Assembly (NCBI GenBank): GCA_002862965.1
Contig: PKCW01000251.1
Location: forward strand, 1 to 20,418
Reading direction: 5' to 3'
Source: Pseudomonadota bacterium
Lineage (GTDB): Bacteria > Pseudomonadota > Gammaproteobacteria > UBA5335
DNA length: 20,418 nt
Of the stretch, positions 578 to 19,801 are shown one piece after another (positions within the stretch are counted from its first letter, which is position 1; every line of letters starts with the position of its first letter). The translations under genes and the position numbers were made by a program. Under the pieces are notes generated by a model that worked only from the letters and a program-made list of their open reading frames with translations, did no database searches and was not told the origin of the DNA.

Positions 578-578
578 G

Positions 579-878
579 TCAGTTCTCCTGCTTGGGCGTG
601 CCGGCGTGCCCGGAGTGGTTCGGCGGCGTGCGCTCGTCAGGGTGGCGGTGGTCGTCATGACCGCCGTGGCTGCCGTGCATGAAGAAGTGCATCAGCGGGC
701 AGGCCAGCAGCAGGCCCCAGATCAGGATGCTGCCCAGATGCGCGCGGTGTTCTGTCCAGAGGAAGTACGCGCCGATGCCGAGCAGCCCAGCGAGCCCGAT
801 GTTGAAAGCGGCGCCGCCGCGCCTGGGCAGCCCGCGAGGGCGATCGCCACCGGTCTGATGGTGACTGTCGTGATTCAT
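579..878 (-). CDS. DUF2933 small membrane protein
   Basis: This encodes a 99-residue protein starting at the ATG at 876-878, preceded by a strong AGGAGGG ribosome site; an in-frame upstream start at 941 lacks this. It opens with a His-containing polar segment (MNHDSHHQ), then has two hydrophobic helices (FNIGLAGLLGIGAYFLW and ILIWGLLLACPLMHFFMH). The tail is rich in His, Gly and Asp (HGSHGGHDDHRH). This architecture is typical of DUF2933 proteins, found in proteobacterial heavy-metal and copper loci beside an ICMT-like gene, exactly as here. The His-rich ends suggest metal contact at the membrane, but the biochemical role is unknown. A MerR-type promoter lies about 130 bases upstream. Confidence 0.85.
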   Translation of the reverse strand: MNHDSHHQTGGDRPRGLPRRGGAAFNIGLAGLLGIGAYFLWTEHRAHLGSILIWGLLLACPLMHFFMHGSHGGHDDHRHPDERTPPNHSGHAGTPKQEN

Positions 879-1010: not shown

Positions 1011-1041
1011 AGCCTAAACCTGCGCGCAGCGCACAGGTCAA
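1011..1041 (-). promoter_or_regulatory. MerR-type promoter/operator before DUF2933
   Basis: On the minus strand a -35 TTGACC (1036-1041) and a -10 TAGGCT (1011-1016) are separated by exactly 19 bp. That over-long spacer is characteristic of promoters activated by MerR-family proteins. The spacer holds a near-perfect dyad with 10-base arms (1018-1027 and 1029-1038) and one mismatch. Transcription would start near 1004 and read DUF2933 and the ICMT-like fragment. A close copy stands before the MerR gene at 9372-9402, within a longer similar stretch (about 1001-1090 versus 9362-9443). Confidence 0.75.
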
Positions 1042-1170
1042 ACGTTCGGGTCCCGGCGCTCGAACCCATGTTCCGCCCATGTTCCGGACCTACCGCAAGA
1101 CGACAGGTTGGCCGATCGCCTCGGCGCTCTCCGTTGCACCTCCACACGTCCGCGCGTCCGAATCCCCTTG

Positions 1171-2211
1171 CTATGCCTCGACGATCACCTTGAGCGCATG
1201 GGTGCTCGCTGCCCGCCCAAAGGTGTCGTAGGCGTCGAGGATCTGATCGAGCTTGAAGCGATGGGTGATGAGCTGCTTGGGATCGATCTTCCGAGACTGC
1301 ACGGTCTTGAGCAGCATAGGCGTGGTGACGGTATCGACCAGCCGCGTGGTGATGGTGATGTTCCGCGACCACAGGCGTTCCAGGTGCAGATCCACCTTGG
1401 CGCCATGCACGCCGACATTGGCGATGGTGCCGCCTGGCGCCACGATGTCCTCGCAGGTGGCGAAGCTCGCCGGCACCCCCACCGCTTCGATGGCCGTATC
1501 GACACCGCGTCCGCCGGTCATCTTCATCACCGTTTCGGCCGCCTTGCCGCCGGCGGCGTTGACCGTTGCCGTCGCGCCGAAGCGCTTGGCCACCTGCAGA
1601 CGATTGTCGTCCAGGTCGATCACGATGATCTCGGCTGGCGAATAGAACTGCGCCGTGAGGAGCGCCGCAAGACCGATCGGGCCGCCGCCGACGATGGCAA
1701 CCGTGCTGCCCGGCTCGACCCTGCCGTTGAGCACGCCGCACTCGAAGCCGGTCGGCAGGATATCGCTCAGCATCACGAGCGCCTCTTCGTCGGCGCCCGC
1801 GGGGATCGGATAGAGGCTGGTGTCCGCATGCGGGATCCGCACATATTCGGCCTGGGTCCCGTCGATCTCGTTGCCGAGGATCCAGCCGCCGGTGGTGCAG
1901 TGCGAGTACATCCCGCGCCGGCAATATTCGCATTTGCCGCACGCCGAGATGCAGGAGATGAGAACGCGGTCTCCAGGGCGAAATGTGGCAACGCCCGGGC
2001 CGGTCTTCTCGACCACGCCGACCCCCTCGTGCCCGAGAATGCGGCCAGGGCTGCAGGTCGGGACGTCGCCCTTGAGAATATGCAGGTCGGTGCCGCAAAT
2101 CGTCGTCTTGACGATCTTCACGACGGCGTCGGTCGGCGCCTTGACTTCAGGGATCGGCCGATCCTCCAGCGCCTTCTTGCCCGGCCCTTGATAAACGAGT
2201 GCTTTCATCAT
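1171..2211 (-). CDS. Zinc-dependent alcohol dehydrogenase
   Basis: A complete medium-chain dehydrogenase of 345-346 residues that would interconvert alcohols and aldehydes or ketones with NAD(P)(H). Catalytic-zinc ligands are visible at C39 (TICGTDLH) and H61-E62 (GHEGVG). The structural zinc site is C91, C94, C97 and C105. The Rossmann loop GGGPIG lies near residue 175. Two ATG codons are adjacent at the start; the second is better spaced from the AGGAGG site. It begins 9 bases after the DHOD-like gene and is the last gene of the operon. Its likely role is disposal of reducing power, for example acetaldehyde to ethanol or a secondary alcohol, but the substrate cannot be read from sequence. 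No clear terminator was seen after it. Confidence 0.92.
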   Translation of the reverse strand: MMKALVYQGPGKKALEDRPIPEVKAPTDAVVKIVKTTICGTDLHILKGDVPTCSPGRILGHEGVGVVEKTGPGVATFRPGDRVLISCISACGKCEYCRRGMYSHCTTGGWILGNEIDGTQAEYVRIPHADTSLYPIPAGADEEALVMLSDILPTGFECGVLNGRVEPGSTVAIVGGGPIGLAALLTAQFYSPAEIIVIDLDDNRLQVAKRFGATATVNAAGGKAAETVMKMTGGRGVDTAIEAVGVPASFATCEDIVAPGGTIANVGVHGAKVDLHLERLWSRNITITTRLVDTVTTPMLLKTVQSRKIDPKQLITHRFKLDQILDAYDTFGRAASTHALKVIVEA

Positions 2212-2220
2212 CGTCCTCCT

Positions 2221-3261
2221 CTACCTGTATGGAGCCCGCACGTCTGGCGAAGCCTTCCTACTGACCTGGCAGGGGCACTCCAGAAGCAATGTCCGGGTCG
2301 GCTGCGCGCGCAGCAGCAGCTCGCGATGCGCGAGCCGATGGGCGCTCATGCGCCCGCGGATTTCCGCCACCGACGCGGCGCCGTGCCCTTCCAACCACTC
2401 GGTGAGTCCACCGACCAGATGCGTCAGATGTCCAGGCCCATGCCGCAGCAGCGCCGAGACGGTCAGCACCGCGTCGGCGCCGGCGAGCAGGTATTTCGCC
2501 ACCTCGGCGGCTTCCTCAACTCCCCCCGAAGCGCCAAGACTGAGCGGCACCTTTCCGGCCAGCAAGGCCATCCACCTCAGTGGGAGCCGAATGTCTTCCC
2601 GGGTCGACGACTCCAGCGTGGGGCGAAACGTCGCCGTCTCCAGATCGATGTCGGGCTCGTAGAACCGGTTGAACAGGACGAGGCCTTGAGCCCCCGCTTC
2701 GGCGAGTGCATGGGCCAGGTGGATCGGCGCTGTGAAATACGGCCCGAGCTTCACGGCGACCGGGACCGTCACGCTAGCGCATACTGCGCGCACGGTCTCG
2801 AGCAGTTGCTGCTCGATGTGCGTGGACGTCTCGGCCGGGTCGGTCGGAACGCGGTGGAGATTGAGCTCGATTGCCGCGACGCCCGCGGCTTCGAGCTCCG
2901 CCGCCATGCGGGTCCAGCCCTCGCGCGTGGTCGCGTTGAGGCTCGCGATCAGCGGCACCGAGACGCTCTCGGCAGCGCGTCGGACCGTCTCGACATGCGC
3001 CGCGCGCGGGTTGCGATACCCGCGGAGCGGCGGCAGATAGCTCGCCACCTCCGGATGGCTTTCCGCCCCGACCACAGCGACCGCCTCCAGCGCCTCTTCC
3101 TGGGCGACGAGTTCCTCTTCGTAAAGCGTGGCGGTCACGATGGCCGCCGCACCGGCATCCTCGAGCCGCCGGATGCCGTCGAGCGTGGCCGACAGGGGCG
3201 AGGCGCCCGCAATGATGGGGTGGGCGAGAGTGAGACCGAGATAGGTGGTTTCGAGTGTCAT
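2221..3261 (-). CDS. Dihydroorotate dehydrogenase-like flavoprotein
   Basis: A 346-residue TIM-barrel protein related to class 1 dihydroorotate dehydrogenases. Family features include the N-terminal LGLTLAHPIIAGASPLS, a KLGPYF strand near the middle, and a phosphate-binding GASGGVEEAAEVAKYLLAGADAV near the C-terminus, so FMN binding is likely. At about residues 131-140, where true class 1A enzymes carry an N-x-S-C-P-N active-site segment, this protein has NLHRVPTDP and lacks the catalytic Cys. It is therefore probably not a pyrimidine enzyme. Its ATG overlaps the PFOR stop codon by 4 bases (ATGA), suggesting translational coupling and perhaps a partner role in PFOR electron transfer. The substrate is unknown. 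Confidence 0.85.
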   Translation of the reverse strand: MTLETTYLGLTLAHPIIAGASPLSATLDGIRRLEDAGAAAIVTATLYEEELVAQEEALEAVAVVGAESHPEVASYLPPLRGYRNPRAAHVETVRRAAESVSVPLIASLNATTREGWTRMAAELEAAGVAAIELNLHRVPTDPAETSTHIEQQLLETVRAVCASVTVPVAVKLGPYFTAPIHLAHALAEAGAQGLVLFNRFYEPDIDLETATFRPTLESSTREDIRLPLRWMALLAGKVPLSLGASGGVEEAAEVAKYLLAGADAVLTVSALLRHGPGHLTHLVGGLTEWLEGHGAASVAEIRGRMSAHRLAHRELLLRAQPTRTLLLECPCQVSRKASPDVRAPYR

Positions 3262-6200
3262 TGGGTGGCTTCCCTGGCTTCGGTCGCCGGACCCTCGACA
3301 ACCCCTTCTTCCTGCCAGAAGGGATGGAAACGCGTTCCGTCTCGCGCCGCCAGGTCCTCGTAGATCCGGTAGCGCTCATCGACTGCCGCCTGGGCCTGGC
3401 GCAGCAGCATCTGCGCCTCTTCGGGCCGGGTTTGCGTGAGCATGCGGTAACGCAGCTCCTGGTAGGTGAAGTCCTCCAGCGGCAGCCGCGGCCGGGTGCT
3501 GTCGAGCCGGAACGGGTTCATACCGGCGCGCCGCATCCGTGGATCGTAGCGGAAGAGCGGCCAGTAGCCACTCGCCACCGCCCGGCGCTGCTGCTTCATG
3601 CCGTCCCGCAGGTTGAGCTTCAGCCCATGCGCGATGCACTGGCTGTAGGCGAGGACGAGCGACGGTCCCTCGTACGCCTCCGCGTCGCGCAGCGCCTGGA
3701 TCGTCTGCTCCGGGCTGCCGGCGAGCGCGATCTGCGCGACGTAGACGTATCCCGAGGCGATCGCCTGCAGCGCCAGGTCCTTGCGCGGCGTGCGCTTGCC
3801 GGCAGCCGCGAACTTCGCCGCGGCCCCGAGCGGTGTCGCCTTCGACGCCTGGCCGCCGGTGTTGGAATAGACCTCCGTGTCCAGCACCAGGACATTGACA
3901 TCGCGGTCTTGGGCCAGGACATGGTCCAGGCCACCGGCGCCGATGTCGTACGCCCACCCGTCGCCGCCCACGATCCAGAGGCTCCGGCGCACCAGATACT
4001 CCGCGAGCGCGCCGAGGTCCTGGGCCGGGCCGTCGGTCGCCCCGGCCAGCGCGCGCCGCAGCGCCTCGACCCGCGCCCGCTGGGCCACGATCTCGCTGTC
4101 GGTGCGCTGCGGCGCGTCGAGGATCTCCTCGGCAAGCCGCGGCCCGAGGCGATCGGCCATGGCGCGGACCAGCGCCCGCGCCATCGCGACCTGCTGGTCG
4201 ACCGCAAGACGCATGCCGAAGCCGAACTCGGCGTTGTCCTCGAACAGGCTGTTGTTCCAGGCGGGGCCTCGTCCGTCGGGACCGGGCCGCCACGGCAGCG
4301 CCGGCAGGTTGCCGCCAAAGATCGACGTGCAGCCAGTGGCGTTGGCGATCTGCAGGCGATCGCCGAACAGTTGCGACAGGAGCTTGAGATACGGGGTCTC
4401 GCCACAGCCGGCGCAGGCGCCGGAGAACTCGAACAGCGGCCGCACGAACTGCAGCCCGCGCGCGAGATGCAGATCCACATGTTCGCGGGCGTGTTCCGGT
4501 AAGGTCTCGAAGAAGGCGAGGTCGCGCCGTCCCGGCTCGATCTGCGGTCGCCGGTCGCTGAGGTTGATGGCCTTGACGCCCGGATCGAGCGGGTCGTGGG
4601 CCGGGCAGTGATCGATGCAGAGGCCGCAACCGGTGCAGTCCTCGACCGCGATCTGCAGCGTGAAGCGCTTGTCGGGATAGCCGCGCGCATTGACCGGTGC
4701 CGCGAGAAAGCCCTCTGGCGCTCCGTCCAGCAGAGCGGCGTCGAAGGACTTGGCGCGGATGACGCTGTGCGGGCAGACGATGCCGCATTGGCCGCACTGG
4801 ATGCAGAGCTCCGGCTTCCAGACGGGCACCTCGAAGGCGATATTGCGCTTCTCGTACTGCGTCGTGCCGCCGGCGTAGCTGCCGTCCGCCGGAATGGCGC
4901 TGACCGGAATCTCGTCGCCCCGGCCGGCGAATTGCAGGGCCGCGATGCGCCTCATCGGGTCCGGCGCGTCCGGCGGCACGAACACGCGCAGCTCTTCCGC
5001 CGAGGTGACGGAATCGGGCAAGACGACATCGTGCAAGTGATCGAGCGCAGCGTCCACGGCGGCAAAGTTCTTCTCCAGGATCGCGCGGCCCTTGTCGGCG
5101 TAGCTCTGCTCGATCGCCTTGCGGATGCGGCGGATGCCTTCCTCGCGCGGCAGTACGCCGCTGATCGTGAAGAAGCAGGTCTGCAGGATCGTGTTCACCC
5201 GCGGCCCCAGCCCCAGGCGCTGCGCCACCCCGCTTGCGTCGATGACGAACAGGCGCAGCCGCTTGTCCAGGATGTGCCGCTGCACCGGCCGGCGCAGATG
5301 GTTCCAGACGTCGGCCGGATCGTAAGGCGCGTTGAGGAGGACGGTTGCGCCGTCGCGGGCGTGGCGCAAGACATCCAGCTTGTCGAGGAACTCGAATCGG
5401 TGCACGCCGATGAATTCGGCTGAGGCAACAAGATAAGGCGCCGCGATCGGCGTATTGCCGAAGCGCAGATGGCTGATCGTCTCGGCGCCGGATTTGTGGC
5501 TGTCATAGACGAAATACCCCTGCGCATAGCGCTCCGGGTCCTCCGCCAGGATCTTCACGCTGTTCTTGTTCGCCCCGACCGTCCCGTCCGAGCCGAGGCC
5601 GAAGAAGAGGGCTCGCGTTGTGCCCGGCGGCTCGATCTCGAAGCCAGGCTCTACGGCCAAGCTGGTGCCGCAGACGTCGTCGGTGATGCCGACGGTGAAG
5701 CCGGCGCGAGGCTGGTCGTTCCTGAGGTGGTCGAACACGGCCTTGGCCATCGCCGGCGTGAAGTCCTTGGATCCCAGACCGTAGCGGCCGCCGACCACCA
5801 GCGGCAGATTCGGGCGCGCGCCGCGCGCGGCGGCATCCGCCAGCGTCTGCGCCACGTCGAGGCAGAGCGGTTCGGCCGGCGCCCCCGGCTCCTTGGTACG
5901 GTCGAGCACCGCGACCCGGCGCACGCTTGCCGGCAGCGCGTCGAGAAAGTCCTTTGCCGACCAGGGGCGGTAGAGCAGCACCTGCAGCACACCCACGCGC
6001 TCGCCCCGGCCTGCCAGGTGGGCGGCCGTCGCCCGCAGGGTCTCGGCCGCCGAGCCCATTGCCACGACCACGCGCTCGGGCTCTGCGTGGCCGTCATAGC
6101 GGAACAGGCGGTAGCGCCGGCCGCTCAGTTCCGCCAGCCGGTCCATGGCGCGCTGCACGATGGCCGGCGTTGCAAGGTAGAACGGGTTCACCGTCTCGCG

Positions 6201-6878
6201 GGCCTGGAAAAACGTGTCCGGGTTGTGCGCCGTGCCACGCGTCACGGGGCGCTCGGGGCTCAGCGCCCGCTGACGGTGGGCGCGCACCCGCTCGTCGTCG
6301 ATCATGGCGCGGATCTGCGCGTCCGACAGCATCGCGACCGTGTTGACCTCGTGCGAGGTGCGGAAGCCGTCCATGAAATGGACGAACGGCACGCGCGCTT
6401 CGAGCGTCGCCGCCTGCGCCACCAGCGCAAGATCGTGCGCCTCCTGCACCGATCCGGCGCCGAGCAGGGCAAAGCCGGTGCTGCGCACCGCCATGACGTC
6501 GGAATGGTCGCCGAAGATCGAAAGAGCCTGGGTCGCGAGCGAACGGGCCGCCACGTGGAAGACACAGGGCGTGAGCTCGCCCGCGATCTTGAACATGTTC
6601 GGCATCATCAACAGCAGGCCTTGGGAGGCGGTGAAGGTGGTGGTCAGCGCGCCCGCCTGCAGCGAACCGTGCACCGCGCCCGCGGCGCCGCCTTCCGCCT
6701 GCATCTGCTGGACGATCGGCACCGCGCCCCAGAGGTTGGTCCGGCCCTCCGCCGACCATTCGTCGGCGAGCTCGGCCATCGGCGAGGACGGCGTAATGGG
6801 ATAGATCGCGCAGACGTCGTTGACGCGATAGGCGACGTGCGCGACGGCCGCATTGCCGTCCAGGGTCGTGCGCTCCAT
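3258..6878 (-). CDS. nifJ: Pyruvate:ferredoxin (flavodoxin) oxidoreductase
   Basis: A single-chain PFOR of 1206 residues, the usual family size. It would oxidise pyruvate with CoA to acetyl-CoA and CO2, reducing ferredoxin or flavodoxin. The start at 6876-6878 follows AAGGAG and gives the family N-terminus (LDGNAAVAHVAYR); a GTG at 6906-6908 overlapping the upstream stop is less likely. Motifs in order: YPITPSSPM (about residue 26); two 4Fe-4S sites, CIQCGQCGIVCP (about 693) and CTGCGLCIDHCP (about 750); proximal-cluster cysteines in CAGCGETPY (about 820), NATGCTS (about 845) and YSQCIAHG (about 1080); and TPP-binding GDGWAYDIG (about 970) with NTGGQASKA (about 1005). All cluster ligands are present, so it should be active. 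It is oxygen-sensitive in most relatives, which fits the upstream FNR-like box. Confidence 0.96.
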   Translation of the reverse strand: MERTTLDGNAAVAHVAYRVNDVCAIYPITPSSPMAELADEWSAEGRTNLWGAVPIVQQMQAEGGAAGAVHGSLQAGALTTTFTASQGLLLMMPNMFKIAGELTPCVFHVAARSLATQALSIFGDHSDVMAVRSTGFALLGAGSVQEAHDLALVAQAATLEARVPFVHFMDGFRTSHEVNTVAMLSDAQIRAMIDDERVRAHRQRALSPERPVTRGTAHNPDTFFQARETVNPFYLATPAIVQRAMDRLAELSGRRYRLFRYDGHAEPERVVVAMGSAAETLRATAAHLAGRGERVGVLQVLLYRPWSAKDFLDALPASVRRVAVLDRTKEPGAPAEPLCLDVAQTLADAAARGARPNLPLVVGGRYGLGSKDFTPAMAKAVFDHLRNDQPRAGFTVGITDDVCGTSLAVEPGFEIEPPGTTRALFFGLGSDGTVGANKNSVKILAEDPERYAQGYFVYDSHKSGAETISHLRFGNTPIAAPYLVASAEFIGVHRFEFLDKLDVLRHARDGATVLLNAPYDPADVWNHLRRPVQRHILDKRLRLFVIDASGVAQRLGLGPRVNTILQTCFFTISGVLPREEGIRRIRKAIEQSYADKGRAILEKNFAAVDAALDHLHDVVLPDSVTSAEELRVFVPPDAPDPMRRIAALQFAGRGDEIPVSAIPADGSYAGGTTQYEKRNIAFEVPVWKPELCIQCGQCGIVCPHSVIRAKSFDAALLDGAPEGFLAAPVNARGYPDKRFTLQIAVEDCTGCGLCIDHCPAHDPLDPGVKAINLSDRRPQIEPGRRDLAFFETLPEHAREHVDLHLARGLQFVRPLFEFSGACAGCGETPYLKLLSQLFGDRLQIANATGCTSIFGGNLPALPWRPGPDGRGPAWNNSLFEDNAEFGFGMRLAVDQQVAMARALVRAMADRLGPRLAEEILDAPQRTDSEIVAQRARVEALRRALAGATDGPAQDLGALAEYLVRRSLWIVGGDGWAYDIGAGGLDHVLAQDRDVNVLVLDTEVYSNTGGQASKATPLGAAAKFAAAGKRTPRKDLALQAIASGYVYVAQIALAGSPEQTIQALRDAEAYEGPSLVLAYSQCIAHGLKLNLRDGMKQQRRAVASGYWPLFRYDPRMRRAGMNPFRLDSTRPRLPLEDFTYQELRYRMLTQTRPEEAQMLLRQAQAAVDERYRIYEDLAARDGTRFHPFWQEEGVVEGPATEAREATQ

Positions 6879-6904
6879 GACTCGCGTTCTCCTTGCCGCG
6901 TCCG

Positions 6905-8590
6905 TCACTCCCGGAGCCGGAAACGCTGCGGCGCAATGGGTTCACCCAGCGATCCGAGCGGTGCCGCAGCGGGTATGGCATCGGGCTTCATCTCGATGGC
7001 GTGGCAGGGGCACTGCTCGAAGCAGATGCCACAGCCGGTGCACAGCTCGGGCTCGACCCGGTAGCCGCGCCCGCGCCCGAGACGGGCGATCGCCTGCTCG
7101 GGACAGGCGGCGAAGCAGTTGTCGCATTCGAAGCAGTTGCCGCACGACAGGCACCGGCCCGCTTCGAACCGCGCCTCCGCCTCGCTGAGGCCCTGCACGA
7201 CCTCGGCGAAGGATGTCCGTGCCGCCGACGGCAGTTCCGGCTCGCTGCGCCGGGCCGCTTCCAGGAATACCGGCAGGTCGAGCATGTCGAAGGTCACCGG
7301 CGGATGCTTGGGCGGCCGCCGATAGGTCGCGCCATGGAGCCACGCATCGATATGTCGGGCCGCGCGCTTGCCGTGGCCGACCGCGACGGTGACCGTGCGC
7401 TCGCTCGGCACCATGTCGCCGCCAGCGAAGATGCCGGGATGGCCGGTCATCATGTCCGGGCCGACGACCACCATGCCGTCCGACTTGAACTCGACGCCCG
7501 GCACGCGCTTGAGGAAACCGCTGTCGGTCTGCTGGCCGAGCGCCAGCACGACCGCGTCGGCCTCAAGCGTTTCGATCCGCCCGGTCGGATGTGGCCTGCC
7601 ATCGGCATCGAGTTCCATGACTTCCACCGTCAGCGACGGGCCCGCCACTTCCTTGATGCTCGTCAGCCACTGGATCTTGACGCCCTCCGCGAGCGCCTCG
7701 TCGGCCTCGAAGGCGTGGGCCGGCATCTGGGTGCGGTCCCGGTGATAGACGATCAGCGCCTCCTCGGCGCCGAGACGCTTCGCCGTTCGTGCGGCGTCCA
7801 TCGCCGTATTGCCGCCGCCGTAGATCACGACACGCCGTCCGAGGCGCGGACGCTCGCCGGTGCTGACCCCGCGCAGAAAGTCCACCGCGTCCAGCATGCG
7901 CGCGGCGTCCCGCGCCGGGATGTCGACATGTTTCGCGACATGGGCCCCGATCGCGACGAATGCGGCGTCGAAGCCGCCGGCTGCTTTCTCCACCAGCAGA
8001 TCCTCGACCCTGTGGTTGAGGATGATGCGGACGCCCATTTGCTCGATCCGGCGGATCTCCTTCAAGAGGTCTGCGCGCGGCAAACGGTACGCCGGGATGC
8101 CGAAATGCATCATGCCGCCGGGGAGCGGTCCCGCCTCGTGGATTTCCACGGCATGGCCGAGGCGCGTGAGGTGATAGGCGGCCGACAGCCCGCTCGGGCC
8201 CGCGCCGACGACAAGCACCCGCTTGCCGCTCGGTTTCGCATCAACCGGGAGCGTCCAGCCCTCCGTTGCCGCCAAGTCGCCGAGGAAGCGCTCGACCGCA
8301 TGGATGCTCACCGCCGCGTCGAGTTCGGTACGGTTACAGCTCGTCTCGCACGGGTGGTAACAGACCCGTCCATGCACGGCCGGCAACGGGTTGTCGCGCA
8401 CCAGCGCTTCCCAGGCCGCCCGGTACTTGCCCGCCTGTGCGAGATCGAGCCAGGCCTGGATGTTCTCGCCCGCGGGGCACGCCGCGTTGCAGGGCGGCAG
8501 ATGATCGATCCAATGCGGGAGTTGTCGCCGCATGGCGCCCGTTCCGGCGGCGACGGCGTGGTTGCGGGTGGCATCCGCTGGCTTCAGCAT
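6905..8590 (-). CDS. GltD-like NAD(P)H/ferredoxin iron-sulfur flavoprotein
   Basis: A 561-residue protein starting at the ATG at 8588-8590, preceded by GGAGG. The longer open frame to 8776 would run across the FNR-like box and is not favoured. The N-terminal cysteine domain is as in glutamate synthase small subunits (C34, C38, then C77, C81, C85). An FAD-binding GAGPSG follows at about 129-134, and an NAD(P)-binding GGGNTAMDAARTAKRLG at about 258. The C-terminus adds a ferredoxin-like part with cysteine groups CLSCGNCFECDNCFAACP (about 479) and CTGCGICFEQCPCHAI (about 513). No glutamate synthase large subunit is present. As first gene of the PFOR operon it most likely shuttles electrons between NAD(P)H and ferredoxin. 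Direction and partner are inferred. Confidence 0.88.
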   Translation of the reverse strand: MLKPADATRNHAVAAGTGAMRRQLPHWIDHLPPCNAACPAGENIQAWLDLAQAGKYRAAWEALVRDNPLPAVHGRVCYHPCETSCNRTELDAAVSIHAVERFLGDLAATEGWTLPVDAKPSGKRVLVVGAGPSGLSAAYHLTRLGHAVEIHEAGPLPGGMMHFGIPAYRLPRADLLKEIRRIEQMGVRIILNHRVEDLLVEKAAGGFDAAFVAIGAHVAKHVDIPARDAARMLDAVDFLRGVSTGERPRLGRRVVIYGGGNTAMDAARTAKRLGAEEALIVYHRDRTQMPAHAFEADEALAEGVKIQWLTSIKEVAGPSLTVEVMELDADGRPHPTGRIETLEADAVVLALGQQTDSGFLKRVPGVEFKSDGMVVVGPDMMTGHPGIFAGGDMVPSERTVTVAVGHGKRAARHIDAWLHGATYRRPPKHPPVTFDMLDLPVFLEAARRSEPELPSAARTSFAEVVQGLSEAEARFEAGRCLSCGNCFECDNCFAACPEQAIARLGRGRGYRVEPELCTGCGICFEQCPCHAIEMKPDAIPAAAPLGSLGEPIAPQRFRLRE

Positions 8591-8775
8591 CGGCGGATCC
8601 TCCGGTCTTTGCCTCGGGTCATCGGCTGCTCTCCACCGGTTGGCTTGCGGCGGCCGTAGCCACGCGGCTCGCGCGCCGGGTTTCCAAGCTGCATTGAATG
8701 ACGACTCCACATCCCTGCAGCGCACGGAGCCGGTGAGCATGCCGGCAGGATGAAGCGGGAGCAGGCCCGCGTGCA

Positions 8776-8789
8776 TTGACCCGCGTCAA
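8776..8789. promoter_or_regulatory. FNR/ANR-type box upstream of the PFOR operon
   Basis: TTGAC-CCGC-GTCAA is a perfect inverted repeat with 5-base arms and a 4-base gap, matching the FNR/ANR/DNR consensus TTGAY-N4-RTCAA. It lies in the gap between the MerR stop (8832) and the GltD-like start (8590). If it sits at -41.5, transcription toward the operon would start near 8741, with a weak -10 (TTCATC-like) at about 8749-8754. That gives a leader of about 150 bases. It implies activation at low oxygen or by a related CRP/FNR regulator. Confidence 0.65.
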
Positions 8790-8831
8790 TTGTTCCCGTT
8801 TTACCGGCACCTCGCCTCCAGCATGAGAGCC

Positions 8832-9347
8832 TCATCGCGGCTGGGAGCGCGCCTTGGGGTGCCGTCGCGCACGGCCAGGCTGCATGTTCGCGGAGTGGTC
8901 GCTCGGCCAACTGCCGGCGACCGCAGTGATCAGGTGGCAGATATCGTTGCCGGTTGGCACTGCGTCGGGCAGGTCGTTCCACAGCGCGACGGCGTGTTGC
9001 ATGCGCTCCAGCATGACCTGCAGATCGTCGAGCTCCCGGCGGGTCTCGTCGAGGCGCGACTGGATCGTCGAGCGCACGATGGGGCACGGGCTTTCTCTTT
9101 TGTGCCCGAGACGGACGATTTCGCCGATCTCGGCGAGCGTGAAGCCGAGGCGCTGGGCGATGCGGATGAAGCGCAGGCGCTCGGCATCGTCCTCGTCGAA
9201 CAACTGGTAGCCGGCGCTGGTGCGGCGCGAAGCACGCAGCAGGCCCCGTCGCAGGTACAGCCGGACGACGTGTACCGACAGACCGGCGCGTTCGGCGAGC
9301 GAGGAGACGGTCAACAGGGTCTTCGGTGTGCGGCGCTCGCTGGACAC
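8832..9347 (-). CDS. MerR-family transcriptional regulator
   Basis: A 171-residue regulator starting at GTG (9345-9347) after AAGGA. The N-terminal winged helix-turn-helix is clear (LTVSSLAERAGLSVHVVRLYLRRGL, then SAGYQLFDEDDAERLRFI). A long dimerisation helix follows (about residues 92-125). The only cysteines are C88, at the start of that helix where metal-sensing relatives place a ligand, and C137 in NDICHLI. This is not the usual CueR- or ZntR-type C-terminal Cys pair, so the inducer cannot be assigned; metal or redox are options. The C-terminal tail is basic (RARRHPKARSQPR). Its own promoter (9372-9402) has the MerR-type operator, and a copy precedes DUF2933 at 1011, so both are probable targets. 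Confidence 0.9.
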   Translation of the reverse strand: MSSERRTPKTLLTVSSLAERAGLSVHVVRLYLRRGLLRASRRTSAGYQLFDEDDAERLRFIRIAQRLGFTLAEIGEIVRLGHKRESPCPIVRSTIQSRLDETRRELDDLQVMLERMQHAVALWNDLPDAVPTGNDICHLITAVAGSWPSDHSANMQPGRARRHPKARSQPR

Positions 9348-9371
9348 GTCTCGTTCCTTCTGTTGCGGTGC

Positions 9372-9402
9372 AGCCTAAACCTGTGCGCAGGGCAAAGGTC
9401 AA
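9372..9402 (-). promoter_or_regulatory. MerR-type promoter/operator of the MerR gene
   Basis: The minus strand shows -35 TTGACC (9397-9402) and -10 TAGGCT (9372-9377) with a 19-bp spacer containing the dyad ACCTGTGCGC / GGGCAAAGGT (two mismatches). Transcription would start near 9365, about 18 bases before the GTG. The layout equals the promoter at 1011-1041, and the similarity extends over about 80 bases. This points to autoregulation and a shared regulon. Confidence 0.75.
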
Positions 9403-9454
9403 GCGTTCGGGTCCGGGCGCTTGAACCTATGTTTTGGACCTGCCTTGGACTGAC

Positions 9455-9486
9455 CTTAGGTTCGGATGGGCTTAGGCTCGGATGGG
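9455..9486. repeat. Two tandem 16-bp units
   Basis: CTTAGGYTCGGATGGG occurs twice head to tail (9455-9470 and 9471-9486) with one difference. It sits between the MerR promoter and a degenerate FNR-like box. It could be a pair of protein sites or a small duplication. No function can be assigned. Confidence 0.6.
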
Positions 9487-9495
9487 CGCCGCGCA

Positions 9496-9509
9496 TTGAT
9501 CCGTGTCAG
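9496..9509. promoter_or_regulatory. Near-consensus FNR/ANR-type box
   Basis: TTGAT-CCGT-GTCAG matches TTGAY-N4-RTCAA at all but the last base. It shares the context CATTGAnCCGnGTCA with the box at 8776. Two small hairpins follow on the plus side (9519-9531 and 9536-9557), after which the IS256 element begins. It may once have served the rightward ftsH unit, or may act on the MerR side. No good -10 was found at the expected distance. Confidence 0.4.
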
Positions 9510-9567
9510 TTATCCTATGGCGCGATGCGCCGGCACCCACGTCGCATGAAACGTGGGCGTAGTCTAG

Positions 9568-11001
9568 GAGTTATTGTCAAATCTGGTGTATGTCATCCGT
9601 TCGTCTGAGCCTCAGGCGGCGAGTTCCTGTTGAAGCGGTGGATTGTCCAGCACCGCTTCACCGTCTTTGAAGGGAATGCCCTTCAGCAACAATTCAATTC
9701 GTTCTGCGCCTTTGATCCGGCGCCAGGATTTTTCCGCTTCCTCCATCAGCTTGAAGGCGAGCCCCAGGAAGGTTGCGCGTGTCACGCAGTTGCGCGTCCG
9801 GGTGGTGCGGTGACGCACGGTGGCGAACGTCGACTCGATCGGGTTGGTCGTCCGCAGATGCACCCAGTGCTCTGCCGGGAAATCGTAAAAGGCCAGCAGG
9901 GCATCGCGGTCTCTGACGAGTTTTTCCACAGCCTTCGGATACTTGGCTCCGTAGTGCTGCACCAGGCGGTCAAAGGCCCTGTTCGCCTCCGCGCGCGTCG
10001 CGGCCATCCAGATCTCCTGCATCGCCGCCTTGGCCTTGCCTTGCAGCGATTTCGGCAGTGCGTTCAGCACATTGCCCATCTTGTGGAACCAGCAGCGCTG
10101 GCCCCGGCTGTCCGGAAACACCTCCTCCAGCGCCGCCCACAACCCCATCGCCCCGTCGGCCACGGCCAACAGCGGGCCGTGCTGCAGACCTCGGGCCTTC
10201 AGATCCAGCAGCAGCTCGCGCCAGGATGCTTTCGATTCCCGCAGGCCATCACCGATGGCCACGCGCTCCTTGCGGCCTTCCGGGGTCACGCCGATGATGA
10301 CCAGCAGGCATTGGCCGTCGCTCGATTCCTCGGCGCGCAGACCGGTGTGAATGCCATCCACCCACCAGTACACGTAGCGCTTGCCGCTCAAGGAGCGCCG
10401 GTTCCACGCGGCATGTTCCTCGGCCCATTGCGCGTGTCGCCGGCTCACCACGTTCGCCGACAAGCCTTTGGCCTCCTCGCCCACCAGGACCGAGAGTGCC
10501 TCGCTCATGATCCCCGCTGGAGATCCCTTTGAGATACAGCCACGGCAGCGCCGCGGAGAGTTTCGCCGAGCGCCGCACATAGGGCGGGACGATCGCCGAA
10601 TTGAACTTCACGCCCTGGCCGGAGCGGTCGCGAACCTTGGGCAGCTTGACCGGCACCGGCCCAATCGCGGTCAGCACCTCGCGTTCCGGCAGGTAGCCAT
10701 TGCGCACGACGGCACGTTGTCCGTGCAAGGTCGTCACGTTCGCGTAGTGGTTGAGCAGCTCGGACAGCTCCGCCTCGATGGCCTGCTGGATCACCTGTCG
10801 TGCGCCCTGCCGGATGAGCTCCTCCAGGCCAAGCCCGATGGCGGGCGCCGATGGACGATTCGTGTTCTGGTCATTATGATGCTTCATGGTGGTTGTCTCC
10901 GGTTGTTGGTTCGATCTCGACAATCAGATTTTCAACAGGAACAGCCACCGCCTTCAACTCTTTCGACCTTCAGAGCCATACACCAGATTCGACTTTAGCT
11001 C
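9568..11001 (-). mobile_element. IS256-family insertion sequence
   Basis: The element is bounded by 25-bp imperfect inverted repeats, 9568-9592 and 10977-11001. They share the exact inner 13 bases AATCTGGTGTATG and about 8 of the outer 12. Immediately outside is the direct repeat GTCTAG (9562-9567 and 11002-11007). IS256 elements usually duplicate 8-9 bp, so either the target repeat has decayed or the true ends differ by a few bases. The length of 1434 bp fits the family. The element sits between the MerR locus and the ftsH promoter. Confidence 0.8.
9612..10887 (-). pseudogene. IS256-family transposase, frameshifted
   Basis: Two overlapping frames together make a full IS256 (mutator-type) transposase. 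The N-terminal part begins at the ATG at 10885-10887 (MKHHNDQNTN) and includes the EAELSELLNHYAN and LPKVRDRSGQGVKF segments. The C-terminal part carries the DDE core (VYWWVDGIHTGLR, ADGAMGLWAALEEVFPDSRGQRCWFHKMGN, TTNPIESTFATVRHRT). The frames join at LKGISSGD / MSEALSVL. One extra base, G on the plus strand at about 10509, separates codons that would otherwise be contiguous. This is more likely a mutation or sequencing error than programmed frameshifting, since no slippery run is present. As read, the transposase is inactive. Confidence 0.85.
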
Positions 11002-11118
11002 GTCTAGAGGTGGTGTCCGGCATAGACGGCTACGAGGTCCAGCTCCAGCAGACGGCTTGACGGGCTTGGTTTCATCTTAGCCATGTGCTCTTTGCGCGCG
11101 GGCGACGGGCGTAGCCGG

Positions 11119-11132
11119 TTGACCGAAGTCAA
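11119..11132 (+). promoter_or_regulatory. FNR/ANR-type box and promoter of ftsH
   Basis: TTGAC-CGAA-GTCAA is a perfect inverted repeat matching the FNR/ANR consensus. Placed at -41.5 it puts the transcription start at about 11167, with a -10 CATCGT at 11155-11160. The chosen ftsH ATG at 11193 then has a leader of about 26 bases. This spacing supports the ATG over the in-frame TTG at 11160, which would lie upstream of the transcript start. From the IS end to this box (11008-11118) I see no convincing gene. Confidence 0.65.
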
Positions 11133-11192
11133 TGACCGGACCGTCGCCGGGGTGCATCGTTGGTCGAACTTGTCCGGCAAAGGCCGCAATCG

Positions 11193-13043
11193 ATGCACCC
11201 GAAAAACCGCATCAATCTGCTGTATCTGGTGGCAGCGGTATTCGGCATTCTGCTGATGCAGAGCATGCTCGCCGGCGTCGGCCACGTGCGTAGCGTGCCG
11301 TACAGCGAATTCGAGCAGATGCTTAAGGAAGGCGAGATCGAGGAAGTGGCGATCACGAGCGGCAGCCTGCGCGGCACGCTGGCAGGCTCAGCTGCGGACA
11401 AGCCGCAGCACGTCGTCGCCGCAAACGTCGACCCAGCCGTGGCCGCGCGCCTCGAACGCTACGGCGTGCGCTTCTTTGCGGTGCAGGAGAACACCTGGCT
11501 GCGCGACATTTTGTCCTGGGTTGTGCCGATGCTGCTGTTCTTCGGCCTGTGGATGTTCGTGTTGCGGCGCGTCGCCGAGAAGCAGGGCATGGGCGGCGGC
11601 ATGATGGCGATCGGCAAGAGCAAGGCCAGGGTCTACGTCGAGAACGACACCAAGGTGAGCTTCGCCGACGTCGCCGGTGTCGACGAAGCCAAGGCCGAGC
11701 TGCAGGAGATCGTGACCTTCCTGAAGAATCCGGCGCCGTATGGACGCCTGGGTGCGCGCCTGCCCAAGGGCATCCTGCTCGTCGGTCCGCCCGGCACCGG
11801 CAAGACGCTGCCGGCGCGCGCGGTGGCCCGCGAGGCCGGCGTACCGTTCATCTCGATCAGCGGCGCCGAGTTCGTCGAGATGTTCGTCGGCGTCGGCGCC
11901 GCGCGCGTGCGCGACCTGTTCGAGCAGGCCCGCGCCAAGGCACCGGCGATCATCTTCATCGACGAGATCGATGCGCTGGGCCGGGCGCGCGGCGCGTTTC
12001 CGCTGTCGGGCGGCCACGACGAGAAGGAGCAGACGCTCAACCAGCTGCTGTCGGAGATGGACGGCTTCGATCCGCGCCAGGGCCTGGTGCTGCTGGCCGC
12101 CACCAACCGCCCCGAGATCCTCGATCCGGCCTTGCTGCGCGCCGGCCGCTTCGACCGCCAGGTGCTGGTCGACCGGCCGGATCGTGTCGGTCGTGAGCAG
12201 ATCCTGAACGTGCACCTCGGAAAAGTGCGCCTGGCGCCCGGCGTCGACGCGCAGCAGATCGCGGCGCTGACACCGGGCTTCTCCGGCGCCGATCTCGCCA
12301 ACCTGGTCAACGAGGCGGCCCTGCTGGCCACCCGCCGCGGCGCCGAGACGGTGGACCAGGACGACTTCACCCAGGCGATCGAGCGCATCGTCGCCGGCCT
12401 GGAGAAGCGCAGCCGCCTGCTCAACCCGCTGGAGCGCCGCATCGTGGCGTATCACGAGCTGGGTCATGCCTTCGTCGCGCTCTCGCTGAAAGGCTCCGAC
12501 GCCGTGCAGAAGGTGTCCATCATCCCGCGCGGCGTCGGTGCGCTCGGCTACACGCTGCAGCGGCCGACCGAAGACCGCTTCGTGATGACGCGCAAAGAGC
12601 TGCACAACCGCATGGCCGTGCTGCTCGGCGCGCGCGCGGCCGAGCGCGAGGTGTTCGCCGAGGTGTCGACCGGCGCCGCCGACGACCTCGCCAAGGCCAC
12701 CGACATCGCGCGCAACATGGTGACCCGCTTCGGCATGGTGCCGGCCTTCGGCGAGGTGGTGTTCGAGACGCAGAACCCGCGCTTTATCGACACGCCGCTG
12801 CCGATGCCGGGCGAGCGCTGCTATAGTGAGGACACCGCGCGCGAAATCGACCGCGCCGTGCGCGAGCTGGTCGATGCCACCTACCAGACGGCCGCAGGCA
12901 TCGTGCGTTCGCGCCGCAGCACGCTCGATGAGGCGGCCAAGCTGCTGCTGGAGCGCGAGACGTTGCTCGAAGCCGATCTGCTGGGTTTCATGGGCGCTGC
13001 ACCTGTCGCAGAACCCGCACCGAAGGTTCAGGCCGCAGCCTGA
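11193..13043 (+). CDS. ftsH: ATP-dependent zinc metalloprotease FtsH (accessory copy)
   Basis: A 616-residue inner-membrane AAA+ protease that would extract and degrade damaged or surplus membrane proteins. The N-terminus has one membrane helix (about residues 8-28), a periplasmic segment, and a second helix ([18 protein letters not shown], about 104-125). The AAA module shows Walker A GPPGTGKT (about 197), pore motif [13 protein letters not shown], Walker [12 protein letters not shown] (about 253) and arginine-finger region [20 protein letters not shown] (about 303). The protease has HELGH (about 420) and the distal zinc ligand in [12 protein letters not shown]. Oddities: Pro replaces the usual Leu after GTGKTL, and HELGH replaces the commoner HEAGH; catalytic residues are kept. 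An FNR-like box precedes it. The setting suggests a mobile second copy, not the housekeeping gene. Confidence 0.95.
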
Positions 13044-13078
13044 TGCTGTTCACGACCCCTCGTTTCAGGAGAAAGACG

Positions 13079-13444
13079 ATGCGCAACGCAAGACAGGCAT
13101 GGATCACTGCCGCTGCACTGATGCTCGCTGCCGCTCAGGCGGCGGTCGCGGCCGACCAGCACAAGCCAGCCGCAGCGAAGCCGCCGATGCAGCAGCACGG
13201 CGCGGCTGGCGGCATGGGCATGATGGACATGCCGATGATGAAAGAGCACATGGCGCAGATGCGCGAGCACATGCAGAAGATGAAGTCCGCCCAGTCCGAC
13301 GATGAGCGTCAGCGCCTGATGCAGGAGCATATGGAGATGATGGACGAGCACATGGGCATGATGATGCGCATGATGGAGGGCATGGGCGGTATGGGAGGCG
13401 ACGAAACCGCCGCGCCGGACGCAGCCCACGGTCACGGACAGTAA
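13079..13444 (+). CDS. Exported Met/His-rich protein
   Basis: A 121-residue protein from the ATG at 13079, preceded by AGGAGA. Another ATG at 13043 overlaps the ftsH stop (ATGA), but it lacks a ribosome site and would place extra residues before the signal peptide. Residues 1-25 form a signal peptide (MRNARQAW, a hydrophobic Ala/Leu core, AVA-AD cleavage site). The mature part has about 23 Met and 8 His in under 100 residues, with an EHM..M pattern repeated four times (KEHMAQM, REHMQKM, QEHMEMM, DEHMGMM). It is probably one or two amphipathic helices. Such composition suits binding of soft metals such as Cu(I) or Ag(I) in the periplasm. I recognise no named family. It is co-transcribed with ftsH, so a role as partner or metal buffer is possible. 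Confidence 0.8.
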   Translation: MRNARQAWITAAALMLAAAQAAVAADQHKPAAAKPPMQQHGAAGGMGMMDMPMMKEHMAQMREHMQKMKSAQSDDERQRLMQEHMEMMDEHMGMMMRMMEGMGGMGGDETAAPDAAHGHGQ

Positions 13445-13445
13445 T

Positions 13446-13471
13446 CGGCGGGCTAACTAATGCTTCCGCCG
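13446..13471 (+). terminator. Possible weak terminator hairpin
   Basis: Just after the Met/His-rich gene, CGGCGG (13446-13451) can pair with CCGCCG (13466-13471) across a 14-base loop. No run of T follows, so classic intrinsic termination is doubtful. It would separate the ftsH unit from ackA-pta. Confidence 0.25.
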
Positions 13472-13474
13472 GCC

Positions 13475-13488
13475 TTGACTCGGATCAA
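13475..13488 (+). promoter_or_regulatory. FNR/ANR-type box upstream of ackA-pta
   Basis: TTGAC-TCGG-ATCAA matches the FNR/ANR consensus in both arms. If it acts at -41.5, transcription starts near 13523, about 120 bases before the ackA ATG. The -10 region (around 13511-13516, GCTGAT-like) is weak. Direct ANR/FNR control of acetate kinase and phosphotransacetylase is known in other proteobacteria, so the placement makes sense. Confidence 0.6.
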
Positions 13489-13646
13489 TGCGGCTCCACG
13501 CGCCGATCACGCGCTGATCGAGCGCAAGCGTGCGGCCATCGGAGATGTCACCCAAGCGCTGGCGAACGTGCCCAAGGCCCGCGATGCCGCCTATGAGCAG
13601 GCCTTCAGCCTCCTCTATGGCGATCCAGGCCGAGCGAGCGCCCGAA

Positions 13647-14882
13647 ATGGCTGAGACAACGCGATCCGGGCACGCGCCAGCAGCCGCGAGCGGCGCGATC
13701 CTGGTGATCAATTGCGGCTCGTCGAGCGTGAAGTTTGCGCTCTTCGCCGCGGGAGAGCCGCAGCCACGCCTCTGGTCAGGCGCGATCGAGCGCATCGGTC
13801 TGGCCAACGGCCGCTTTCGCGCCGTCGACGCCCAAGGCGCGACGGTGCTCGACGAGACCGGGGAGATTGCCGACCACGATGCGGCGCTGGGGCTGCTCCT
13901 GGACGCGATCGAGCGTCACCCCTCGGGCGCGCGTTTGACGGCGGTCGATCACCGGGTCGTCCACGGCGGCCCCGAATGCGACTGCCCGGCGCTCGTGACG
14001 GCGGCGCTGGAGGCGCGGCTTCGCCAGCTCGTCCCGCTCGCGCCGCTGCACCAGCCCCACAATCTCGCCGGGATCGCCGCGGTCCGCGCCGCTCGCCCCG
14101 GCCTGCCGCAGGTCGCTTGCTTCGACACGGCGTTTCATCACGGTCTGCCGCGGCTTGCGACGCTGACGGCCCTGCCGCGGGCGCTCTTCGGCGAGGGCGT
14201 CCGGCGCTACGGCTTCCACGGCCTGTCCTACGAATACGTCATCGACGCGCTCCGCCGCGACGGAGTGCATGTGGATCGCGAGCGCATCGTCGTCGCGCAT
14301 CTCGGCAACGGCGCCTCCATGTGCGCGCTCGCGGGCGGGCGCAGCGTCGAGACCACGATGGGCTTCTCGACGCTCGCCGGCCTACCGATGGGCACACGCT
14401 GCGGCGACCTCGACCCCGGGATCATTCTCTACCTGCTCACCGAGAAGGGCATGACGGTCGAGCAAGTCCAGCATCTCCTCTACGAGGAGTGCGGCTTGCT
14501 CGGCCTCTCCGGTGTGAGCCGCAACATGGAGGACCTGCTGGCCCGGCCCGGCGAGCCGGCGGCCGTCGCGGCCGTCGAGTTCTTCTGCTACCAGGCCCGC
14601 CGGCACCTGGCGGCGCTGACGGCGGCACTCGGCGGCCTCGACCGGGCGGTGTTCACCGGCGGGATCGGCGCCAACGCGCCTGCGGTCCGGGCAAAGATCT
14701 GCGCTGGCCTGGCGTATCTCGGCATCGTGCTCGACGCGGAACGCAATGCGGGCGGCGCCCGGACCATCTCGGCCAAGGTCGGCCGCGTCCGCGTCGAGGC
14801 GTTCCCGACCGACGAGGAGCTGATGATCGCCCGGCACGTCCGGGACCTGCTGGCCGCAAATCCTGCGGCGCAGGGGGCTTGA
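13647..14882 (+). CDS. ackA: Acetate kinase
   Basis: A 411-residue enzyme of the acetokinase family (ASKHA fold) that converts acetyl-phosphate and ADP to acetate and ATP. All signature blocks are present in order: INCGSSSVKFALF at the N-terminus, DHRVVHGG, CFDTAFHHGLP, RYGFHGLSYEYV, AHLGNGASMCAL, MGTRCGDLDPG, FTGGIGAN and PTDEELMIARHV near the end. The ATG at 13647 is nearest to the conserved start; ATG codons at 13617 or earlier would add an unconserved Arg/Pro-rich tail. No strong ribosome site is visible. A doubtful small frame (13460-13654) overlaps the start by 8 bases. Three bases separate this gene from pta, so they form an operon. Propionate or butyrate are possible alternative substrates. 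Confidence 0.94.
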   Translation: MAETTRSGHAPAAASGAILVINCGSSSVKFALFAAGEPQPRLWSGAIERIGLANGRFRAVDAQGATVLDETGEIADHDAALGLLLDAIERHPSGARLTAVDHRVVHGGPECDCPALVTAALEARLRQLVPLAPLHQPHNLAGIAAVRAARPGLPQVACFDTAFHHGLPRLATLTALPRALFGEGVRRYGFHGLSYEYVIDALRRDGVHVDRERIVVAHLGNGASMCALAGGRSVETTMGFSTLAGLPMGTRCGDLDPGIILYLLTEKGMTVEQVQHLLYEECGLLGLSGVSRNMEDLLARPGEPAAVAAVEFFCYQARRHLAALTAALGGLDRAVFTGGIGANAPAVRAKICAGLAYLGIVLDAERNAGGARTISAKVGRVRVEAFPTDEELMIARHVRDLLAANPAAQGA

Positions 14883-14885
14883 CCC

Positions 14886-15890
14886 ATGGCCGCGCCCATC
14901 AAGAACCTGCAGCAGATCCTCGATCAGGCCCTAGCACTGGAGCCGGTCCGCGTCGCGGTGGCGGACGCCGCGCAAAAGGTCGTGATCGAGACGCTCCGCG
15001 ACGCGCATGCGCTCGGCTTCATCGAGCCGCGTCTCATCGGCGAGCCGGACGCGATCGCCGCCCTCTGCGAAGACATCGGCTGGCAGCCTGCCGAGGACTG
15101 GATCGTCCCGGCGAGCAGTGATGCCTCGGCGGCGGCGACGGCCGTGGCGCTTGCGCGTGCGGGCGAAGCCGACGCGGTCATGAAAGGTCACATCCACACC
15201 GACGTGCTCATGCACGCGCTACTCGACAAGGAGCGAGGCCTGCGCGTCCCGGGCCAGCGGGTCAGCCACGTCTTCCTCGTCGAGGTTGCCACCCATCCGA
15301 AGCTTCTCGGCATCACGGACGCAGCGATCAACATTGCGCCCGACCTCAGCGCCAAGGCGCAGATCCTGCAGAATGCCGTCGATCTCTTTCGTCTCCTCGG
15401 CGTCGAGACGCCGAAGGTCGCCGTGCTGTCGGCGGTCGAGACCGTCACTCCGGAGATCGTCTCGACGCTCGACGCGGCTTGCTTGACGCTCATGGCGCGG
15501 CGCGGGCAGATCACCGGCGCGCTGGTCGACGGGCCGCTCGCGTTCGACAACGCGATCTCGCGGCGTGCGGCCGAGGAGAAGGGCATCACGTCCTCCGTCG
15601 CCGGCGATGCCGACATCCTGCTCGTGCCGGACCTCGTCTCCGGCAACGTACTGGCGAAGAACCTCGAATACCTGGCGGGCGCCGTCGCCGCCGGCATCGC
15701 GGTGGGGCTCGCGGTACCGGTGGTGTTGACCTCGCGCGCCGACCCGGCACCGGCCCGGCTCGCATCGCTCGCCCTGGCTGCGCTGATCCATCACCGGATC
15801 CCGCGGGCGCCGATCAAGGCAGCCGCTCCGGAGTCGAGCCTCCACGCCGCGCCGCAACCCGACCACGCCTGCTGTCCGCTCCCGGAGTAG
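14886..15890 (+). CDS. pta: Phosphate acetyl/butyryltransferase
   Basis: A 334-residue stand-alone PTA/PTB-family enzyme that would convert acyl-CoA and phosphate to acyl-phosphate. Family features are ADAVMKGHIHTDVLMHALL (about residues 97-115), the VATHPKLLGITDAAINIAPDL core, the central SAVETVTPE segment, TGALVDGPLAFDNAIS, and ADILLVPDLVSGNVLAKNLEYL toward the C-terminus. The length matches single-domain Pta and Ptb. It lacks the enoyl-CoA hydratase-like part of bifunctional relatives. It starts 3 bases after ackA, behind a G-rich ribosome site. With PFOR upstream, acetyl-CoA is the likely substrate, though phosphotransbutyrylase activity cannot be excluded by sequence. The C-terminal ~25 residues (Pro/His/Cys-rich) look unconserved. 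Confidence 0.9.
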   Translation: MAAPIKNLQQILDQALALEPVRVAVADAAQKVVIETLRDAHALGFIEPRLIGEPDAIAALCEDIGWQPAEDWIVPASSDASAAATAVALARAGEADAVMKGHIHTDVLMHALLDKERGLRVPGQRVSHVFLVEVATHPKLLGITDAAINIAPDLSAKAQILQNAVDLFRLLGVETPKVAVLSAVETVTPEIVSTLDAACLTLMARRGQITGALVDGPLAFDNAISRRAAEEKGITSSVAGDADILLVPDLVSGNVLAKNLEYLAGAVAAGIAVGLAVPVVLTSRADPAPARLASLALAALIHHRIPRAPIKAAAPESSLHAAPQPDHACCPLPE

Positions 15891-19781: not shown

Positions 19782-19801
19782 AGCTATCCCCTGGGATAGC
19801 T
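19782..19801. repeat. Palindrome, copy 2, abutting a stop codon
   Basis: AGCTATCCC-CT-GGGATAGCT has perfect 9-base arms. Its last base is the first plus-strand base of the stop codon of the minus-strand ICE gene (19801-19803). A hairpin directly at the 3' end of that gene would suit transcript protection or termination. Confidence 0.6.

Follow-up and report, generated by a model that had tools for sequence, protein, structure and literature searches.

Gene content of the window

The DNA analysed here, called the window throughout, is a stretch of 20,418 nt (contig PKCW01000251.1, positions 1 to 20,418) from a draft gammaproteobacterial genome (GCA_002862965.1) that is 82% complete and consists of 330 contigs. 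It carries genes for pyruvate:ferredoxin oxidoreductase (PFOR) and acetate formation together with a partial gene of an integrative and conjugative element (ICE), and is probably one end of the cargo of such an element. The minus strand holds, in order, merR, a gltD-like gene, the PFOR gene, a DHOD-like gene and an alcohol dehydrogenase (ADH) gene, then a DUF2933 gene; the plus strand holds ftsH, a gene for a Met/His-rich secreted-type protein, ackA and a Pta/Ptb-type gene. A copy of an IS256-family insertion sequence (IS) separates these two divergent sets. The features are:

579..878, minus strand: His-rich DUF2933 protein (Pfam PF11666, 77.5 bits; 13 His)
1011..1041, minus strand: MerR-type promoter/operator before the DUF2933 gene (31-bp core within repeat 993-1072)
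1171..2211, minus strand: zinc-type ADH (Pfam zinc-type ADH; 98% identity in TR3.2)
2221..3261, minus strand: DHOD-like protein (NCBIfam PRK07565, 359 bits, cut-off 303)
3258..6908, minus strand: PFOR (start 6878 or 6908; TIGR02176, 1642 bits, cut-off 911; motifs)
6905..8590, minus strand: GltD-like NAD(P)/Fe-S flavoprotein (PRK12771, 751 bits, cut-off 516; start from codon model)
8776..8789, unstranded: FNR/ANR-type box before the gltD-like gene (exact TTGAYN4RTCAA)
8832..9347, minus strand: MerR-family regulator (Pfam MerR_1 and MerR-DNA-bind; Cys88 and Cys137 invariant in 17/17 aligned)
9372..9402, minus strand: MerR-type promoter/operator before merR (within repeat 9354-9433)
9496..9509, unstranded: weaker FNR-type box in the merR-ftsH intergenic region (one mismatch)
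~9568..11001, minus strand: IS256-family insertion, transposase in two frames (IS256, 247 bits; 25-nt ends 84% complementary)
11119..11132, unstranded: FNR/ANR-type box before ftsH (exact TTGAYN4RTCAA)
11193..13043, plus strand: accessory FtsH (TIGR01241, 751 bits, cut-off 600)
13079..13444, plus strand: Met/His-rich secreted-type protein (25 Met and 8 His in 121 residues)
13475..13488, unstranded: FNR/ANR-type box before ackA (exact TTGAYN4RTCAA)
13617..14882, plus strand: acetate kinase AckA, start uncertain (TIGR00016, 352 bits, cut-off 293)
14886..15890, plus strand: phosphate acetyl/butyryltransferase-type enzyme, Pta/Ptb-type (PRK08190 subfamily, 378 bits, cut-off 282)
18136..19170, minus strand: IS1595-family transposase (family match)
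19801..20418, minus strand: partial STY4528-family ICE replication protein (112.8 bits, cut-off 130; contig end cuts gene)

A preliminary description of this DNA had named the metabolic genes and ftsH. PFOR, the GltD-like and DHOD-like proteins, FtsH, AckA and the Pta-type enzyme do lie where it placed them, all above their NCBIfam cut-offs, but it had overlooked merR, the duplicated promoter of merR and the metal-handling genes. PFOR, the GltD-like protein, FtsH and AckA each contain their signature motifs. The ADH falls below every NCBIfam cut-off among the models listed, and its assignment is the Pfam zinc type. For the gltD-like gene, a start near 8590 is likelier than one at 8776, given a family match from residue 74 and the codon model. 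None of 12 relatives of the Met/His-rich protein has a firm function. The FtsH of the window shares 46% identity with a second FtsH of its host and 49% with the chromosomal FtsH of TR3.2, the strain introduced below.

A near-identical segment in an ICE of another family

Evidence for mobility comes from the complete genome of a member of another family (our G286), taken as Immundisolibacter cernigliae strain TR3.2. A search of one 369-genome sample from the class found the window's GltD-like protein at 100% identity in TR3.2. The two genomes have in common the PFOR set, merR, the DUF2933 gene and the beginning of ftsH, with DNA identities of 95.4% (window 435-2242), 98.6% (2238-9509) and 93.1% (11071-11900). 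Among eight genomes of TR3.2's order, the near-identical stretch occurs in TR3.2 only, with short weak matches in four of the other seven.

In TR3.2 the cargo is bounded by the STY4528 and PFL_4669 genes of an ICE; on the ICE side, seven of ten proteins tested score above curated cut-offs (TraD, PFL_4695, TIGR03759, TopB, PFL_4669, STY4528 and ParB). In the window, the STY4528-type gene is the sole ICE mark. Its score is below the cut-off because the contig end cuts the gene, and this end of the window is 90.7% identical in DNA to TR3.2's ICE. Contigs C113 and C303 of the same draft genome also match this ICE, C113 carrying the PFL_4669 side of the ICE and glgX DNA 97% identical to TR3.2. No att repeat was found in the one stretch tried at the right end, where tRNA genes lie, and the window itself has no tRNA gene. 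Carriage on an ICE, as previously proposed, is supported by the segment's position beside an STY4528-type gene and by the near-identical PFOR segment that a member of another family carries in an ICE of this type.

A contig from another organism of the sample, wrongly binned, is a very unlikely explanation. It would suit a draft genome in this many pieces, and the relatives searched (G001-G007) lack a PFOR of this type. However, the tetranucleotide profile of the window correlates at 0.984 with 11 sampled contigs of the bin (whose own range is 0.959-0.994) against 0.96 with the TR3.2 chromosome, and two further contigs of the bin, C113 and C303, also match TR3.2's ICE. The argument for transfer is, moreover, independent of the bin.

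The TR3.2 cargo (~63 kb) combines glycogen use, phosphoketolase, PFOR and copper handling. We called its genes with a home-made codon model and scanned 30 proteins of the region against families, which gave GlgX, an archaeal-type MAT, a UbiB-like kinase, P-type ATPases, GlgC, transaldolase, phosphoketolase, PEP synthase, CFA synthase, CopB, a multicopper oxidase and a beta-CASP metallo-beta-lactamase (MBL) protein, some of these labels being below equivalog cut-offs. The labels GlgP, GAPDH, LemA/TPM, RbbA-like and ICMT-like were assigned by visual inspection or from homology to annotated records. The IS256 copy is missing from TR3.2; there, ~260 bp separate the starts of merR and ftsH, and this interval contains the MerR promoter and two boxes with one mismatch each.

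Several rearranged pieces accompany these segments. The TR3.2 cargo is flanked by a second 5' remnant of ftsH (stretch L145, 2246-2491) and by partial extra copies of the STY4528 and PFL_4669 genes (stretch L144, ~16818-17521), which may mean that insertions or duplications have recurred at this site of the ICE. Window 16177-18000 contains an HlyD-type adaptor gene split in two frames (16177-16839, and 16836 onward) and short coding fragments, the remnants of an efflux set whose TR3.2 counterpart is intact. At the other end, similarity to TR3.2 begins only at ~435; the contig opens with a GAGT-rich run, and an open reading frame at 197-577 resembles the ICMT-like protein of TR3.2 at its start and an AmpG/MFS-like fragment thereafter, which suggests that window 1-434 is a rearrangement or assembly junction.

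FNR/ANR-type boxes

The earlier observation that an FNR/ANR-type box lies upstream of all three units holds: exact TTGAYN4RTCAA sites precede the gltD-like gene, ftsH and ackA. These three compare with 0.011 expected from base composition and none in 40 dinucleotide shuffles of the window; with one mismatch allowed, there are six sites against 1.05 expected. The Y/R form was picked after the sites were known, and the TR3.2 cargo is the more independent test. Across its 63 kb it contains four exact boxes against 0.025 expected, preceding glgX, a LemA-type gene, the gltD-like gene and an EF-hand-like gene, three of the four being absent from the window. The TR3.2 ICE backbone has no exact box in 39 kb, and the TR3.2 chromosome has one in 47.5 kb, located within a gene.

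We also scanned upstream of gltD-like genes at 36 of 38 candidate loci, leaving out the copy in the window and a locus with scant upstream DNA. An exact box occurs at 4/36, compared with 8/1570 background windows. The window's genome and TR3.2 each have two or more genes for FNR/ANR-type proteins, with the Crp-type helix-turn-helix above cut-off and the Cys cluster judged by eye.

Elsewhere, two exact boxes accompany a gltD-PFOR pair in Rhodospirillales bacterium 69-11, which has on a separate contig a 69% identical Pta, an 82% identical ADH, and Cu-type ATPase and CFA synthase homologs together.

A MerR-type regulator with a repeated promoter

The merR gene (8832-9347) adjoins the gltD-like-PFOR unit. 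An 80-bp repeat (993-1072 and 9354-9433, 90% identity) places the same minus-strand arrangement, TTGACC-19 bp-TAGGCT with a dyad, before both the DUF2933 gene and merR. Promoters of the MerR family typically have a 19-bp spacer, and the window pairs a MerR protein with promoters of this spacing and a dyad. The 31-bp core promoter occurs exactly twice in the window, twice in TR3.2 and never in reversed controls. TR3.2 has a third, degenerate MerR-type site at 1456617; at ~1456589-1456650, an exact FNR-type box adjoins a degenerate MerR-type dyad upstream of an EF-hand-like, Met-rich gene. The regulator itself is below every NCBIfam equivalog cut-off, with Cys88 and Cys137 invariant in all 17 relatives aligned.

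Ten other stretches were scanned for MerR-type sites, which were found in one only, a third lineage (G390). Its MerR is 56-58% identical to the window's, and similar paired sites, with 7 and 8 mismatches, precede merR and an ICMT-like gene. Within 20 kb it also has Cu-type ATPase, MBL and efflux homologs and one exact FNR-type box, and no PFOR match. On a plasmid of Methylophaga pinxianii (L099), a merR gene whose product shares 45% identity with the MerR of the window lies between glgP and glgX, near a DUF2933 gene.

These findings could also describe mainly a copper or metal resistance island, with MerR as the main switch and the metabolic genes as passengers. The MerR with its repeated promoter, the DUF2933 and Met/His-rich proteins, the CopB, multicopper oxidase and Cu-type ATPases of the TR3.2 cargo, and the G390 MerR among metal and efflux genes would all fit. 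However, the boxes precede the metabolic units, while the MerR sites found precede merR and the DUF2933 gene, and we consider this explanation quite unlikely.

A fixed kit or a mosaic?

The preliminary description saw a single portable kit, to be checked by co-occurrence and synteny in other genomes. That check gave a divided answer: the PFOR segment recurs in TR3.2's ICE, but the exact combination is not conserved. In the 369-genome sample, all four of Pta, ADH, MerR and the gltD-like protein occur in the window's genome only, and three in TR3.2, at E limits of 1e-90 for Pta (3 genomes passing), 1e-120 for the gltD-like protein (25), 1e-120 for ADH (3) and 1e-40 for MerR (3). The ADH carrier G227 has only a GlgC homolog besides the ADH within 42 kb; the MerR carrier G390 has many kit homologs within 20 kb.

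We also compared 80 PFOR loci, the best of at least 588 matched stretches. A GltD-like gene is adjacent in 34 of them and a DHOD-like gene in 57, across many phyla. The window-type ADH is adjacent in none, and AckA, Pta, MerR, the Met/His-rich protein and DUF2933 have no match nearby at any of the 80 in the DNA examined, although missing neighbours are weak evidence since only 32 loci have ~10 kb of DNA on both sides. With ackA and pta near none of these loci, ackA-pta missing from the TR3.2 stretch and ftsH truncated there, the idea of one fixed kit is not supported. The mobile unit looks larger and mosaic.

Separately useful stress genes might simply pile up at the STY4528-PFL_4669 cargo hotspot, each with its own promoter and with no joint function. 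The gene losses in TR3.2, the PFOR loci just described, the single genome in 369 that combines the gltD-like, Pta-type, ADH and MerR genes at the limits used, and the insertion sequences on both sides would agree with such chance neighbours. Exact boxes in two cargoes and none in the backbone speak against them, as does a conjugative plasmid of Phenylobacterium zucineum that gathers homologs of many of the same families. We regard chance assembly as unlikely.

Several results weigh against the reading favoured below, an oxygen-limitation and metal-stress island using its host's FNR/ANR. Neither AckA nor Pta is matched in the 160 kb of TR3.2 examined (1370-1530 kb), and the match to FtsH there stops at residue 234-249 of 616. 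The ADH had to be rejected as a kit marker, with 98 plasmid records at E 1e-80. The Pta-type enzyme, whose substrate may by its sequence be acetyl or butyryl, scores below the cut-offs of both the classical pta model (66 bits, cut-off 311) and the butyryltransferase models (298 bits, cut-off 399); the route from pyruvate to acetate that had been described is complete in gene content, with this caveat. For the strict consensus TTGATN4ATCAA with at most two mismatches, the window has six sites (four intergenic, two inside genes) against 2.01 expected, and 2 of 100 shuffles reach six, a modest surplus. Exact boxes are absent from 32 of the 36 other gltD-like loci and from five of ten other island stretches scanned (L095, L092, L099, L133 and L170, the last from the window's own genome). 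Inspection by eye found no convincing -10 element at the boxes.

A probable mosaic island for oxygen limitation and metal stress

On balance, we favour the view that the window is one end of an ICE cargo, a mosaic oxygen-limitation and metal-stress island that uses the FNR/ANR of its host (probability about 0.68). The sequence itself shows the genes and boxes, the repeated promoters, FNR-type genes in the host, the link to an ICE and the near-identical segment in another family, and from these we infer the island's function and induction, including regulator binding, the electron routes, the metal and any benefit to the host.

When oxygen drops, the host's FNR/ANR would bind the TTGAYN4RTCAA boxes and activate gltD-like-PFOR-DHOD-ADH, ftsH with the Met-rich protein gene, and ackA-pta. 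PFOR would convert pyruvate to acetyl-CoA, which the Pta-type enzyme and AckA may turn into acetate and ATP. The GltD-like protein could pass PFOR electrons to NAD(P), with the ADH as a possible means of re-oxidising NAD(P)H, and FtsH would remove damaged membrane proteins. A MerR-type sensor presumably governs merR and the DUF2933 gene through the pair of near-identical promoters and would bring in metal stress, perhaps from copper.

More tentatively, and at somewhat less than even odds, this may be a conjugative plug-in for oxygen-limitation metabolism, whose fermentation and glycogen genes join the recipient's FNR/ANR through their boxes while its own MerR adds metal stress; an environmental aerobe could then gain anoxic survival in one transfer. 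If true, anoxic survival could be acquired by conjugation, through an ICE spreading an FNR-boxed pyruvate-to-acetate route between families. Mobile heat (tLST) and metal islands are already known, as is lxa as a low-oxygen island. One carrier, taken as TR3.2, is a cultured degrader of polycyclic aromatic hydrocarbons from contaminated soil, so the idea is testable in an environmental isolate.

Comparison with known systems

The closest counterpart is the TR3.2 ICE, with its near-identical DUF2933-ADH-DHOD-PFOR-GltD-MerR segment, STY4528 gene and cargo site. Unlike the window, it has no IS256, a truncated ftsH, no ackA-pta in the stretch, and far more glycogen, phosphoketolase and copper cargo.

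The low-oxygen-activated (lxa) locus of Burkholderia cenocepacia is described as a low-oxygen island (PMC6127331, PMC3759415, PMC9104464). Its consecutive genes BCAM0298-0300 encode a Pta/Ptb, a zinc ADH and an MBL-superfamily protein, raised with colonisation time (PMC6127331). Compared by description, the window has the Pta-type and ADH members, and the TR3.2 cargo has the ADH and, near it, a beta-CASP MBL protein; all three are never adjacent in either. The six universal stress proteins of lxa are absent from the window proteins scanned and from the part of the TR3.2 cargo scanned, and PFOR is not among the lxa proteins in the published descriptions consulted. A B. cenocepacia stretch that we considered as lxa was rejected, as Pta and AckA were the sole matches there.

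On the P. zucineum HLK1 plasmid NC_011143, GAPDH, DHOD-like, PFOR, GltD-like and ADH genes form one run, with ackA-pta, ftsH, a Cu-type ATPase, DUF2933 and an efflux set elsewhere on the plasmid. It differs in being an alphaproteobacterial conjugative plasmid with its units scattered across ~100 kb, and it has no box within 350 bp of the gltD-like gene and no MerR operator match in four stretches. The published account, as far as consulted, describes many chaperones and a FixLJ pair (PMC2529317).

The locus of heat resistance, tLST (PMC8290217), is likewise mobile and shares an FtsH type with the window. The window's accessory FtsH is 63% identical to one encoded next to clpK and hsp20 on a plasmid of Klebsiella; membership in tLST was rejected, with no sHsp20 or ClpG/ClpK among the window proteins scanned. 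Chromosomal GltD-PFOR-DHOD operons have the same core and are widespread, but without adjacent ADH, ackA, pta, MerR or DUF2933 at the 80 loci. Listings of the open-access literature gave no report of such an ICE. Since its parts are known from lxa, tLST and the GltD-PFOR-DHOD operons, we regard the ICE-borne, box-marked and MerR-linked combination as a new variant among mobile stress islands.

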